Positions 22,859 to 27,903 of a stretch of 40,602 bases of DNA are shown here, piece by piece; the first letter of the stretch is position 1; each line of letters begins with the position of its first letter. Origin of the DNA: Gammaproteobacteria bacterium (GTDB taxonomy: Bacteria; Pseudomonadota; Gammaproteobacteria; Steroidobacterales; Steroidobacteraceae); NCBI GenBank assembly GCA_028293805.1, contig JAQGOC010000016.1:1-40602 (forward strand). The letters are read 5' to 3'. The position numbers and the translations under genes are program-made. The notes under the pieces were generated by a model. That model was not told the origin of the DNA and did not search any database. It saw nothing but the letters and a program-made list of their open reading frames with translations.

Positions 22859-24082
22859 TCAGGGCATGATGACTCTGACGTGGATGGCCCTCGAGCCACC
22901 ATACACGCCGTGGTTGGCATCCGCCATGAGGAGACCGCCGTGCCAGGGAAGGATGGCCTGGTTCTGTGTACTGGCGTTGGCCAGAACTGTTTCGCGCAGT
23001 TCGCCGTGGGTCCATTGGAACATCGCAATGCGGCAAGGTATGCCGGGGTGAGTCGGCGGTCGGCCTTCCGGCCTTGCGGGGTCGCAGGCCTGTTCTTGCT
23101 CGGCGACGAGAAAGTACGGTGTCCCGTCCTGCCAGTCGCCCAGATTGATCTCGTGCACGTCACGGTAGCTGGAGGCCACGTCGTGAGCAATCCACGCCGC
23201 GCCAGGGTCGTCGGGCTGCTCATACCAGGTGATCCCCCGCGCATCCGTCGTACCACCCGGTCCCTCGTGTTCGTTTGCTGCGGTGATGACATCGTCCTTC
23301 ATGGACGATATTCTTCCAGCGGCAAAACTGTTGCCGACGTTGCCGGGACCGATGTAGTGCTTGACCCAGTTTGCGGTGCGGGCATTGCCGCCTGTCAGGC
23401 GCGGGTTCTCATACCAGAATACACCGCCGCTGTGATCAGCGCCCACGAGGTGCGGCGTGGGATCGGTGCCGATCCTGATGACCGCAATGTCGTCGCCCAC
23501 GTCGGCAACGTTGTAAACCAGCTGCCAGTGGCGGGGGTCGTTCTGGAACGCCACGAATTCAGGCGCTCCCAAACTGATCGCACCCGAACAGATGACATCG
23601 ATCCTGCCATCCCCATCGAGGTCCTCCAGCCGGATGTCGTGACAGCCATGATCCGGATTGATCACGCGGCGGGGCCACTGTCGGGTGACGCCTGCGATGT
23701 TGCCGTGATTCCCGGGATTGTCGAACCAGATGATCTTGTTGCCGATGGAGGCGATGATCCCGGGATAAGCGTCGCCGGGAAATTTGACGGCGCGCATCCG
23801 CTCGTACGCGCCGCCCTTTTTTGTGATGGTGGACCGCACCCACGGCCCCTCCATTTTGTGGCTGGTCGACCGATACAGGTATATGCCACCCCGTCCATTG
23901 CCGACGATGACGCTCGGAAACGCTCGCGAGGCGAAGTAATCGGCAACTTTTTCCAGGGGCTCGCCGACCGGGAAATCGGCATCGATGACCACGTCCTGGG
24001 TGATCGACTGCGCACCGGCCTTCCCGGCGGCAACCACGCTCAACGAAAGCGACGCAAGCAACACTGGCAACATCGCTTTCAT
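22859..24082 (-). CDS. Secreted FG-GAP/VCBS-like beta-propeller protein
   Basis: A 407-residue exported protein with a Sec signal at the N-terminus (MKAMLPVLLASLSLSVVAAG, cleaved near AGA-QS). The mature chain has repeated Trp/Tyr-rich blades such as IIWFDNPG, VFWYENPR and ITWYEQPD, each near a short GDD/DG strand. One Ca-binding loop, DLDGDGRIDV, is present. This fits FG-GAP/VCBS propellers, which are usually secreted or surface proteins of unknown ligand. ATG 24082 is chosen over 24109 for its GGAA ribosome site and signal start. No partner gene is evident. Confidence 0.75.
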   Translation of the reverse strand: MKAMLPVLLASLSLSVVAAGKAGAQSITQDVVIDADFPVGEPLEKVADYFASRAFPSVIVGNGRGGIYLYRSTSHKMEGPWVRSTITKKGGAYERMRAVKFPGDAYPGIIASIGNKIIWFDNPGNHGNIAGVTRQWPRRVINPDHGCHDIRLEDLDGDGRIDVICSGAISLGAPEFVAFQNDPRHWQLVYNVADVGDDIAVIRIGTDPTPHLVGADHSGGVFWYENPRLTGGNARTANWVKHYIGPGNVGNSFAAGRISSMKDDVITAANEHEGPGGTTDARGITWYEQPDDPGAAWIAHDVASSYRDVHEINLGDWQDGTPYFLVAEQEQACDPARPEGRPPTHPGIPCRIAMFQWTHGELRETVLANASTQNQAILPWHGGLLMADANHGVYGGSRAIHVRVIMP

Positions 24083-24502
24083 ATCGATTCCACGCGGGGG
24101 ATGATGCACGCGTGGCCGCCCGCGGCATTATTCTTCAGCAATCCTTTCAGCACAGGGGCGAAACTGGCAGTAGATCGGACCCGGGTCAAGCGCTGCCTGA
24201 GACTGCAAGGCGCTCTACGGGAACCAATGGCCGCTTCCGGCGTGTTGGTCAGCAGCGTGTACAGCTCGATGATGGCGCCCGAGCCGCTGCGTAACACCGG
24301 CTGCGCCTCCAACCGGTACTAGCCGCAGCACGCGCAGCCGGTCGCACTTCCTGCCGCGCATGCCCCCGAGGTTCCCGTCTCGTCGGTGATATCTCATTGG
24401 CCCGGACAGGGGCTTTTCCCATGAGATACGCCGGGGGGACCGGAACTTAAGTTGCGCCCGCGAATTTCGCTTAAGTGCCCAACCCATTGCCGCCTGCCAA
24501 AA
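24083..24502. other. 420-bp intergenic region with two stem-loops before the ROK gene
   Basis: No gene is supported. Two inverted repeats stand close together. The first is TATCTCATTGG (24390-24400) with CCCATGAGATA (24418-24428), pairing at 10 of 11 positions. The second is ACTTAAG (24445-24451) with CTTAAGT (24470-24476), perfect over 7 bp. They lie 27-113 bases upstream of the ROK start and could be a leader RNA or operators. The region from 24083 to about 24380 shows nothing further. Confidence 0.5.
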
Positions 24503-25585
24503 ATGCCCGATACACCCCCATCATCGCTGCTCGCTCACGGTGCTTCGCAACTGGCCGGCGTCACCGTGGACGCTTACAACGCCGAGCTGCGTAGCCCCGA
24601 GGGCTTCGTTGGCGATCGCGCCAGCAAGCGGGCTTTCCAGGCAATTCTCGACGACTGGCGCGAGCGCGTTCGCAAGGTTGGAGAGGACCCCTTCGGCGAT
24701 GCCCCAAGCGAGGATCTGCGCAAGAAGGAGCTCGACAAACTTCTGGTCGAAGGCGACGCCGAAGCGGCCGGCGTCCTGCACGGCGTCATCGAGGAGTTCT
24801 CACAGGAATTCGCCCAGGTCATTCGCCGTTTCCTGCGCCTGAAGAGTTGGAAAGGCACCGAGCGCATCGTGGTGGGCGGTGGCTTGCGTCAAAGCCGTAT
24901 CGGGGAGCTCTCGATCGGCCGCACTGCCGTCATCCTCAAGGCGGACGGGGTCGAGGTGGAATTGAAGCCCATCCGTTATCCATCCGATCATGCTGGGCTC
25001 ATCGGCAGCGTCCACCTCGTCCCATCCTGGATGCTGGCCGGGCACGACAGCATTCTCGCCGTCGATATCGGGGGCAGCAACATCCGCACCGGCATCGTCG
25101 AACCGCGGTTGAAGAAGAAGGCCGATCTGTCAGAGGCGACGGTCGGCCGGTTCGAGCTGTGGCGCCACTGCGATGACAGTCCCGCCCGCAACGATGCGGT
25201 CGCGCGTCTCATCGAGATGCTCACGGATCTCATCAAGCGCGCCGCCAAGGACGAATTGAAGCTCGCCCCTTTCATTGGCATCGGCTGTCCGGGCGTCATT
25301 CGCCCCGATGGCACCATCGACCGCGGCGGCCAGAACCTGCCGGGCAACTGGGAGGTCAAGAGCTTCAACCTGCCGCAACTGCTGCGCGAAGCAATCCCGA
25401 AGATCGGCGACCACGACACCGTGGTAGTCATGCACAACGACGCAGTCGTTCAGGGCCTGAGTGAGCTGCCGTTCATGCAGGATGTGAAGCACTGGGGCGT
25501 GCTGACGATCGGTACGGGCCTCGGCAATGCCCGCTTCACGAACCGCGAGGACGGTAAAGAGGCCGAGAAGAACGCCAAGAAATGA
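24503..25585 (+). CDS. ROK-family protein with circularly permuted motif order
   Basis: A 360-residue protein built from ROK sugar-kinase parts in swapped order. Normal ROK proteins begin with the phosphate loop DIGGTN and end with a VIGGG strand and a DDAGLIGA helix. Here the C-half comes first: a helical segment, ERIVVGGGLRQSRIGEL (VVGGG at residues 123-127) and PSDHAGLIGS (to 169). The N-half follows: LAVDIGGSNIRTG (DIGGSN 188-193), IGIGCPG (about 259-264), HNDAVVQG (catalytic-type Asp313) and GVLTIGTGLGNA (GTGLGN 337-342). The chain then stops after a charged tail. The CxCGxxGC zinc motif is absent. ATG 24503 precedes the first homologous helix. Kinase activity is likely but unproven. Confidence 0.8.
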   Translation: MPDTPPSSLLAHGASQLAGVTVDAYNAELRSPEGFVGDRASKRAFQAILDDWRERVRKVGEDPFGDAPSEDLRKKELDKLLVEGDAEAAGVLHGVIEEFSQEFAQVIRRFLRLKSWKGTERIVVGGGLRQSRIGELSIGRTAVILKADGVEVELKPIRYPSDHAGLIGSVHLVPSWMLAGHDSILAVDIGGSNIRTGIVEPRLKKKADLSEATVGRFELWRHCDDSPARNDAVARLIEMLTDLIKRAAKDELKLAPFIGIGCPGVIRPDGTIDRGGQNLPGNWEVKSFNLPQLLREAIPKIGDHDTVVVMHNDAVVQGLSELPFMQDVKHWGVLTIGTGLGNARFTNREDGKEAEKNAKK

Positions 25586-25902
25586 TGGCTTGGCAGAGCG
25601 CGGGGATGACAACGCCACTCGAGAAAACGCTCAAACGCGAGTTATCTCTGCAGGGCCGCCGCTATATAGTCGCGATCTCACCCGACGGTTTGAAGCTGAC
25701 GTTGAAAGGCAAGCGCAAGGGGAAGGAGTTGCGCTGGATCGACCTGGTGACTGGTGACGCGGCGCTGGCGGTTGCATTGAATGCGTCCCTGGGCACATTG
25801 GAAACACCGGGGGAAAACACCGGCACCATGCAAAAAGGTCCGGGCCGCCCAAGGACTTCGCCACGGTCCAAGCGCATTCCGCCACGGGCGAGGCGCGAAT
25901 AG
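25582..25902 (+). CDS. Hypothetical small basic protein coupled to the ROK gene
   Basis: Up to 106 residues. Its first ATG overlaps the ROK stop as ATGA, indicating translational coupling. An alternative ATG at 25606 (MTTPLEKTL) follows GCGGGG. The folded part seems to be residues 10-75 (LKRELSLQGRRYIVAISPDG, then KLTLKGKRKGKELRWIDLV). The C-terminus is a disordered Pro/Arg/Lys tail. I do not recognise the family. It may be a partner or modulator of the permuted ROK protein, judged only from the overlap. Confidence 0.6.
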   Translation: MMAWQSAGMTTPLEKTLKRELSLQGRRYIVAISPDGLKLTLKGKRKGKELRWIDLVTGDAALAVALNASLGTLETPGENTGTMQKGPGRPRTSPRSKRIPPRARRE

Positions 25903-25956
25903 TCCCGCCGCACGCGACGCTCGCGAACGAGGTACCCGTTCGTGCGTTAATGGACC

Positions 25957-27903
25957 ATGAAGGGTTCATCGATCGTCCGCTGGGGCCTGAAATATTTGGC
26001 CATGACGCTCGCGACGCTGCTCGTGGCGGTAGCATTGCTCGTCACCACCGTAACGCTGATGGACGCGAATCGTTTCCGTGGCCCCCTTGGCCGGTTTGTG
26101 GCCGCTCGCACCGGCCGAGAGATCCGGATCGACGGCGCGCTGCAAGCACACCTTTTCTCGCTCCATCCCCGGCTCACTTCCGAGCGCGTCGTGATCGGCA
26201 ACCCGCCGTGGACGCCGCCGGGCCGCACGGCGGAGATCGGACGGCTCTCGCTGGTATTCGAGCTCCCCCTGTTCGGCCACTCGTTCGCCATACAGCGACT
26301 CGAGCTGGAGGGGGCAATGCTGCATCTGGTGCGCGATTCCATTGGTCGCGCCAACTGGCAGTGGGCCGACCCGACGCGGACTGTGGGCAAGGGTCCGCCG
26401 CTCATCCGCAGCCTGTCCATGCCCAGCGCTCATGTCGATCTCGACGATGCCCGCCGCCACCTGCAGTTCGCAGGAACGGTTTCCGCTCAGGACGCATCCG
26501 GGGCGCAAGGAATCGTGCTCTTACGTATCGAAGGATCCGGGCACCTGAATGGCAGGGCCAACACCTTCGCCATCAACGGTGATCCGCTCGCTACCGTCAC
26601 CCGTGCGCGGCCCTACCGCTTCACGTTCGCCGAACGCTCGAGCGGCTCGCACCTCGCCGGCCGCGGGTTCCTGTCGCAGCCGTTCGATTTCCGTGCACTC
26701 GACACCACGTTCGAAGCAACGGGTGAAGATCTGAAAGACCTCTATTTCCTGACTGGCCTGACACTGCCGAATACCGGCACCTATCGCCTCTCGGGCAGGC
26801 TCACGCGGCAGGGAACGAGCTTCAAGTTCAGCGACCTGCTGGCAACCTCGGGACACAGCGATGTGCACGGTACCCTTTCGGTCGAGACGTCGAGCGGCAG
26901 GTCGCAGATCGACGCTGAGCTCCATTCGCAGCTCCTGCGCTTATCCGATCTCGGCGCTCGGGCCGCGGGACGCGTCTCCGAGCCACGGACAGCGAAACGC
27001 CTTCTGCTGCCTGACTCGACGCTGCCTCTTGTTGGCCTGCGTCGCAGCGATGCAGTAGTCAACTTCCACGCGCACGGTGTTGACGTGGGCCGCGTGTCAT
27101 TGCACGCGGTGGCGGCGAAGGTAACGATCGATCATGGCGTGCTCTCCGTAACGCCGCTATCGGCCGATTTCTTCGAAGGAAAGATCACCGGCGGCATCAG
27201 GTTCGATGCGACGAAGGAGGTCCCGACGACGGACCTGGACCTCAGAATCGCCGGCCTGCAACTCAGCCAGTTCGCTCGCAAGGATCAGGGACGGCCGCCG
27301 TTCGAAGGCGCGTTGCGGGTGCGCCTTGGGCTCACGGGCCATGGACGCTCGATTCACGAGCTCGCCGCCAGCGCCAACGGCACGGCGACCGCGGTTCTCC
27401 CGCACGGCGCGATTCGTGCCTCGTTGGCGGAGCTCACCGGAATCGATCTGCGCGGCCTGGGTCTGCTGCTCACGAAGAACAAGGAAGAGACCGGCATCCG
27501 TTGCGGGGTCGCGAGTTTTCAGGCTCACGAAGGTACGTTGACCGCGCAGACCCTGGTGGTCGACACGGACCCGGTCCTGATCACCGGCCAGGGCACCATT
27601 CACCTCGACTCCGAGGCTCTCGATCTTGCGTTCCACGGAAAGCCCAAGCACCTGCGGCTGTTGCGATTGCGCGCGCCGGTGTCGGTCCGTGGCACTCTCG
27701 CGCATCCCTCGATCGGTATCGAGGCGCGCCGCTCTGTCGCTCAAGCCGGCGCGGCCGTAGCCCTCGGGATCGTGCTGACCCCGCTGGCCGCAGTGTTGGC
27801 TTTCGTCGATCCCGGCCTCGCCAAGGACGCCGACTGCGCGGCTTTGCTTGCCGAACCCAAAAATGACACGACATCTGCGAGGGCGGGCGCGCCCACCCCC
27901 TGA
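25957..27903 (+). CDS. AsmA family protein
   Basis: A 648-residue inner-membrane-anchored periplasmic protein of the AsmA/YhjG type. One N-terminal membrane helix (about residues 12-34) is followed by the AsmA opening DANRFRGPLGRFVAARTGRE and a long beta-rich repeat region. The end shows the typical AsmA C-terminal block (DLDLRIAGLQLSQF, GTLTAQTLVVDTDPVLITGQ, LDLAFHGKPK) and a final hydrophobic stretch (AVALGIVLTPLAAVLAFVDPG). Family members act in lipid transport to the outer membrane. Upstream spacing to the small ORF is 54 bp. No strong ribosome site is visible before the ATG. Confidence 0.9.
   Translation: MKGSSIVRWGLKYLAMTLATLLVAVALLVTTVTLMDANRFRGPLGRFVAARTGREIRIDGALQAHLFSLHPRLTSERVVIGNPPWTPPGRTAEIGRLSLVFELPLFGHSFAIQRLELEGAMLHLVRDSIGRANWQWADPTRTVGKGPPLIRSLSMPSAHVDLDDARRHLQFAGTVSAQDASGAQGIVLLRIEGSGHLNGRANTFAINGDPLATVTRARPYRFTFAERSSGSHLAGRGFLSQPFDFRALDTTFEATGEDLKDLYFLTGLTLPNTGTYRLSGRLTRQGTSFKFSDLLATSGHSDVHGTLSVETSSGRSQIDAELHSQLLRLSDLGARAAGRVSEPRTAKRLLLPDSTLPLVGLRRSDAVVNFHAHGVDVGRVSLHAVAAKVTIDHGVLSVTPLSADFFEGKITGGIRFDATKEVPTTDLDLRIAGLQLSQFARKDQGRPPFEGALRVRLGLTGHGRSIHELAASANGTATAVLPHGAIRASLAELTGIDLRGLGLLLTKNKEETGIRCGVASFQAHEGTLTAQTLVVDTDPVLITGQGTIHLDSEALDLAFHGKPKHLRLLRLRAPVSVRGTLAHPSIGIEARRSVAQAGAAVALGIVLTPLAAVLAFVDPGLAKDADCAALLAEPKNDTTSARAGAPTP

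Follow-up and report, generated by a model that had tools for sequence, protein, structure and literature searches.

A putative sugar kinase family of the ROK fold, with its two halves in circularly permuted order, in Proteobacteria

The gene described here lies in a stretch of 40,602 nucleotides (contig JAQGOC010000016.1, assembly GCA_028293805.1) from a gammaproteobacterium of the Steroidobacteraceae, which, taken as a whole, is referred to below as the window. At 24503..25585 of the forward strand, an open reading frame (ORF) starting with ATG encodes 360 amino acids plus stop, without internal stop codons. It is flanked by a Dps/ferritin gene, a gene for a beta-propeller protein, an ORF of 106 amino acids, an AsmA-like gene and a polysaccharide-synthesis transporter gene, the last three of which are kept in the closest relative (L001). 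The beta-propeller-type gene (22859-24109, reverse strand) adjoins the Dps/ferritin gene, and in Pfam its product weakly matches the aldos-2-ulose dehydratase propeller and FG-GAP repeats. The 106-aa ORF (25582..25902, forward strand) overlaps the stop codon of the gene under study (ATGA) and has no Pfam match; it possibly encodes a small translationally coupled partner and, since a relative, sharing 83% identity, is found only in L001 among 69 loci, such a role may be limited to the window's lineage. The features discussed in the text are the following, all on the forward strand:

24442..24467 (+): GGAACTT...AATTT, an ECF-sigma-like element, 61 bases before the ATG, with a -10 part off the GTT consensus
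24503..25585 (+): circularly permuted ROK-type kinase gene, from the ORF reading and its relatives
24536..25024 (+): first half (residues 12-174), corresponding to the C-terminal half of an ordinary ROK by hhalign; structural support weak
24602..24625 (+): GFVGDRAS (residues 34-41), gapless against ROK GCLEAYAS in the alignment to glucokinase-type ROKs
24869..24883 (+): VVGGG (residues 123-127), adenosine-side ROK motif; GGG in 75/75 proteins
24983..25009 (+): SDHAGLIGS (residues 161-169), normally in the ROK C-terminal region; D162, L166 and G168 in 75/75
25025..25048 (+): linker from old C-terminus to old N-terminus (residues 175-182), where the best rotation cut falls
25049..25546 (+): second half (residues 183-348), corresponding to the N-terminal half of an ordinary ROK
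25064..25081 (+): DIGGSN, phosphate-1 loop (residues 188-193); D188, G190, G191 and N193 in 75/75
25433..25441 (+): HND (residues 311-313), including the putative catalytic Asp313; 75/75
25511..25528 (+): GTGLGN, phosphate-2 loop (residues 337-342); 75/75

ROK proteins are a very large and much-studied group of sugar kinases and repressors, the motif order of which has, to our knowledge, been treated as fixed. The window family shares with ROK (PF00480) the DIGGT loop, the catalytic Asp within ND, GTGxG, GGG and AGLxGA, but has the two halves swapped, does not keep ExGH and lacks the zinc motif CxCGxxGC, found in most, though not all, ROKs. A sequence-only reading of the window had placed VVGGG, SDHAGLIGS, DIGGSN, HND and GTGLGN along the protein and proposed a circular permutation. 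All these positions are exact in the translation of 24503..25585, where 18 residues separate GTGLGN from the chain end; CxCGxxGC, which the same reading had reported as missing, is absent from the window protein and from the whole family (0/75).

Homologues with the same order, which that reading had recommended looking for, do exist. Full-length distinct proteins, the window's included, amount to 75: motif order is swapped with respect to ordinary ROKs in every one of them, and GTGLGN is always followed by a short tail of 6-39 residues. The strict order GGG < D[IVL]GG[ST]N < HND < GTG[LI]GN is passed by 74, the remaining one (L152) featuring DIGGRN in place of DIGG[ST]N in an unchanged arrangement. 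The swapped order is a family trait, and not the oddity of a single protein. Its carriers include many bacteria of soils and plants, and in some of them stress-protection genes adjoin it.

A scan of genome contigs found 17 loci encoding relatives, with 50-87% identity, in Steroidobacter, Peristeroidobacter, Bradyrhizobium, Reyranella, Variovorax and metagenome-assembled genomes (MAGs). Their matches are colinear and span nearly the whole protein, from residue 12 or earlier to at least residue 348, so that the order is due neither to chance nor to a frameshift. Matches were also present in 206 plasmid records, mostly of Rhizobium (111) and Sinorhizobium (79), with 80% or more of the protein matched at a single place in 204; among those listed, annotated ones are mostly called "ROK family protein", some "hypothetical protein" and one "glucokinase". 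Whole-genome searches gave matches in 54 of 398 genomes of the phylum (22 full-length, the window's included, and 32 partial only), in 21 of 150 of one rhizobial order (20 full-length) and in 12 of 289 of the class to which this order belongs. Within the window's own group the gene was found in 3 out of 40 genomes searched, the window's included, indicating a patchy occurrence. In viral contigs 27 pattern matches were obtained, none of them a relative.

The permutation was evaluated with hhalign against a profile built from 22 ordinary ROK proteins; these stem from 25 loci of related genomes, among which L055 and L075 were left out for their wrong frames and L067 for lack of a frame. In the encoded order, the family gives two separate matches, wrongly ordered: profile positions 7-150 are covered by the second half (E 1.8e-9), positions 209-310 by the first (E 1.4e-5). 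Rotation at the linker produces a single colinear match, covering positions 8-310 of 315 (E 4.4e-14). When the cut was moved along the family in steps of 20 columns, the score reached its maximum, 103.1, at column 180 (after residue 180), as compared to 72.0 for the natural order; the best cut falls after residue 178 to 180, inside the linker. The first half alone matches positions 209-310 with a score of 46.2 (E 2.6e-6); the highest score among 200 column shuffles is 21.1, and reversing the alignment gives 16.4. Both ROK halves are matched, in swapped order, and the circular permutation proposed by the sequence-only reading is borne out by the single colinear match obtained after rotation, best at one cut. 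A circular permutation of ROK is strongly supported.

In Pfam, the window protein, as encoded, has no PF00480 match at E <= 1, and its second half alone reaches 21.6 bits, under the 22.9 cut-off; the rotated protein passes with 28.9 bits, over positions 2-291 of 294. One relative, L009, passes as encoded with 39.0 bits, and rotation takes it only to 40.3. HMMER comparisons of family profiles to single ROK sequences, in which the first half scored at most 7.1 bits among the 45 matches listed, were not used.

Three ordinary ROK profiles were compared, and the best-scoring one derives from proteobacterial glucokinase-like proteins (L044-L050), which differ from the window family in featuring the ordinary order, E[FL]GH and CGCGxxGC[LIV]E. 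To this profile the rotated family is colinear over positions 3-309 (E 2.1e-16, 292 columns, 25% identity). The best NCBIfam match is the polyphosphate/ATP glucokinase NF045942, whose 250-bit cut-off is not reached either as encoded (27.1) or rotated (35.4), and the best PDB sequence match of the rotated profile is 1woq, again a polyphosphate/ATP glucokinase. CxCGxxGC is also absent from two such sequences compared, but these keep EFGH or ELGH, and the order is the ordinary one. In spite of these matches, close kinship to polyphosphate glucokinases was not adopted, because their profile (20 proteins) matches the second half only (E 2.9e-9), and less well than the glucokinase-type profile does, and has no match to the first half.

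Residues expected at the ATP site and at the catalytic center are highly conserved. In all 75 proteins we find D188, G190, G191, N193, N312, D313, the GTGLGN loop and GGG at 125-127, as well as H12, G37, F45, D162, W220, C262-P-G, Q277-N278 and W283. The catalytic ND and GTGxG of ROKs are present throughout, within HND and GTGLGN, and the phosphate-1 loop D[IVL]GG[ST] carries S or T in 74 of 75. With these motifs invariant, the kinase engine looks intact. Work on MurK assigns to the conserved Asp of the superfamily the role of base, taking a proton from the sugar hydroxyl (PMC10465942, in the part of that paper used here). The substrate side is different. Where glucokinase-type ROKs have GCLEAYAS, the family has GFVGDRAS, the zinc Cys being replaced by Phe and the Glu by Gly, followed by Asp; F35 and D38 are each found in 74 proteins and G37 in all 75. 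The first segment aligns to the ROK strand bearing ExGH, the sugar-binding motif of ROKs, the Glu and His of which are not kept: the aligned positions, 16-19, feature an invariant L17 and a common P18, without conserved Glu or His. With ExGH, zinc Cys and Glu all replaced, the sugar pocket of the large domain looks new, and the substrate is probably not read as ROK glucokinases read glucose.

The same replacements would also suit a pseudo-kinase or sugar sensor, that is, a regulator keeping fold and nucleotide site and binding a metabolite without phosphorylating it, and the ROK family does include repressors, some of them among our structure matches. We regard such a function as rather unlikely: sensors usually lose some of DIGG(S/T)N, HND and GTGLGN, all kept here, and Pfam finds no DNA-binding domain in the window protein. 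Judging from the conserved residues, a kinase is the more likely of the two.

No tandem-duplicated intermediate was recognized by eye in the frames of L182-L186, L188-L191 and L135, where the extra length preceding the kinase does not look like a second ROK. When 101 genomes were searched with a peptide for stand-alone first-segment proteins, 11 had matches, every one of these lying within a frame of at least 359 aa. No unpermuted sister was found in 299 genomes with the rotated profile (E <= 1e-5); beyond permuted genes, this profile matched ordinary ROKs in 6 genomes, by its second half only, and a single short N-terminal remnant. Some family fragments were also observed. In the Bradyrhizobium barranii plasmid pCC1502_1 (L112:6060-6360), a decayed one, with broken frames, lies near response-regulator genes and matches query residues 221-345 with 37.7% identity. 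Two short ORFs on the reverse strand, L021:1432-1680 and L118:11607-11897, match about the first 45 residues (HGAxxLPxVxVDSYN...) and are probably decayed 5' fragments, the L118 one lying a few kb from an intact copy.

Instead of a permutation, the gene might be a chimera of two ROK genes, one supplying its C-terminal fragment as the upstream part and the other its N-terminal fragment as the downstream part, which would produce the observed order without any single gene being duplicated and trimmed. The two halves do differ in closeness to the glucokinase-type profile, the second alone (E 8e-17) contributing most of the rotated score and the first being weak (E 0.0047), and no duplicated intermediate was seen in the 11 loci looked at (those above and L187, without a frame). 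However, after rotation the profile runs colinear with almost the entire length of ROK, and the weaker score of the first half may be due to its matching the less conserved part of ROKs. A chimeric origin therefore appears improbable to us.

The fold predicted for the protein agrees with ROK strongly over residues 180-348 and weakly over 18-164. For the model of the N-terminal half, Foldseek finds no match at E <= 0.001, and Pfam, likewise, has none within this half, as would be the case if the first 170 residues were an unrelated fold placed on a truncated ROK domain. The eight best structure matches are nevertheless all later halves of ROK-type proteins, and the hhalign match to ROK 209-310 scores more than twice any of the 200 shuffles, making an unrelated fold very improbable. 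A frameshift, a rearranged pseudogene or an assembly artefact, for which nothing speaks in the window and only the decayed fragments L112, L021 and L118 elsewhere, is practically refuted by reading frames that stay open in 68 of 69 loci (that of L017 is broken where bases are masked) and by proteins sharing one order across many records; the missed frameshift which the sequence-only reading had considered was not found, the window ORF being intact and its relatives colinear in full length. Antisense frames of at least 80 aa form one cluster over the kinase gene in all 69 loci, for which the codon usage of G+C-rich DNA is the most likely cause.

Upstream regions were searched for promoters resembling those of the EcfG general stress regulon, for which the consulted parts of two reports give GGAAC-N16-CGTT in R. 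etli (EcfG1; PMC3892343) and GGAAC-N17-20-GTT in Sphingomonas (PMC6599016). A first scan, allowing spacers of 15-18 in 330-base windows, found the pattern in 32 of 75 members, as compared to 122 of 3750 random windows. A second, limited to GGAAC-N15-17-[CTG]GTT in the 170 bases before the H12 codon, again found 32 of 75 members with it on the sense strand and 4 on the antisense one, where 200 dinucleotide shuffles gave 0.47 on average and 3 at most, and random windows 104 out of 7500; in the set with less than 80% protein identity the count was 20 of 48. One member distinguishes each set of 32 from the other: the window (-283, spacer 18) is in the first only and L007 in the second only.

While a pattern similar to that of the alphaproteobacterial EcfG regulon precedes these members, the window and the Variovorax-type members lack it in full form. 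It is absent from nine loci (L013-L016, L130, L136-L139), belonging to two Variovorax, two MAGs and five genomes of the window's class. The window, L001, L154 and L155 share a GGAAC located 33-61 bases before the start and followed by ATT instead of GTT, making regulation by a different but related ECF sigma likely. EcfG has been reported as exclusive to Alphaproteobacteria; the nearest named relatives of the window are Gammaproteobacteria. Within the latter, Steroidobacter and Peristeroidobacter members (L003-L007) carry GGAAC-N15-17-[TG]GTT upstream. No sigma-70 promoter was detected when 24100-26000 was scanned; the two terminator-like sites of this interval are at chance level.

Gene neighborhoods were surveyed in 69 loci, the window included, a set with some redundancy (L155 and L002 are on the same contig, and several strains are close); annotation-based tables cover annotated records only. 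In 19 loci the kinase gene adjoins genes for compatible solutes. The trehalose-6-phosphate phosphatase gene otsB is near it in 12, in three arrangements: divergent, at 145-171 bases from the match (L053, L109, L110, L113, L116, L132); divergent, along with otsA and a GH15 gene (L140, L142, L143, L146); codirectional, again with GH15 and otsA (L141, L145), the L145 GH15 protein also featuring a trehalase-like N-terminal domain. A glycine-betaine ABC gene is divergent in five loci (L013-L016, L130) and a NAGGN-system peptidase in two (L107, L114). Mean protein identity between these groups is 48-64%. None of these genes is found at the remaining 50 loci, among which the window; otsB, in particular, has no match in the flanking stretches of 57 of 69.

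Where otsA, otsB and GH15 adjoin, the simplest role for the kinase would be to re-phosphorylate the freed glucose in a trehalose cycle. As a universal function this was rejected: besides the 57 loci without otsB, the window's genome contains a GT20 (otsA-type) match and no match to the otsB family, so that glucose re-phosphorylation cannot be the role everywhere.

These data may be combined as follows. A short linker would now connect the old C-terminus with the old N-terminus; the new ends would lie in the large domain, immediately behind GTGLGN and ahead of the stretch that bears ExGH and the zinc loop in ROK kinases. The permuted chain would still build a two-domain sugar-kinase fold, holding ATP between the domains through DIGG(S/T)N, GTGLGN and GGG, with Asp313, as suggested by the conserved residues, possibly acting as the base towards a hydroxyl group of the substrate, a sugar or a sugar-like compound. 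A stress sigma factor would turn the gene on; many of the alphaproteobacterial copies are probably part of the EcfG general stress regulon, and may serve compatible-solute metabolism. A stress-induced kinase is our best reading of the family, and to the overall interpretation, a naturally permuted ROK-fold kinase with a rebuilt substrate pocket and many alphaproteobacterial copies in the EcfG regulon, we assign a probability of about 0.7.

That kinase families of one fold group may be related by circular permutation is an accepted idea (PMC1079889); no permuted sugar kinase is mentioned in the sections of this work drawn on here, and its main text does not use the word ROK. PMC1976428 and PMC7701253, in the portions considered, use ROK-family and permutation terms only apart, and the words ROK and glucokinase are absent from the main text, as available, of papers on EcfG or stress, including the two cited above. 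The sequence-only reading knew of no described family with this order, and our literature search, by title and beginning of abstract, similarly found no permuted ROK, most subscription journals lying outside it, so that novelty is not proven; nor did it find papers linking ROK to otsB, trehalose-phosphatase or the general stress response. We hold at even odds the broader view of a whole permuted ROK kinase family, undescribed in the searched literature, in which the permutation, by opening the chain at the substrate-pocket rim, removed zinc loop and ExGH and gave a new specificity, put to use in the alphaproteobacterial general stress response and spread on plasmids and to Gammaproteobacteria.

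A conserved permuted family means that the ROK fold tolerates re-cutting in nature, and offers a natural case in which to test sugar-kinase folding and closure on the substrate. It is also a warning that relatives may escape notice when motif order or family scores are relied upon, as for the window protein in Pfam. The linkage of some members to trehalose, NAGGN and glycine-betaine genes, together with the EcfG-type promoter, points to a testable role in desiccation and osmotic stress in rhizobia. It appears that a common enzyme fold was re-cut in nature and that the result has been retained.
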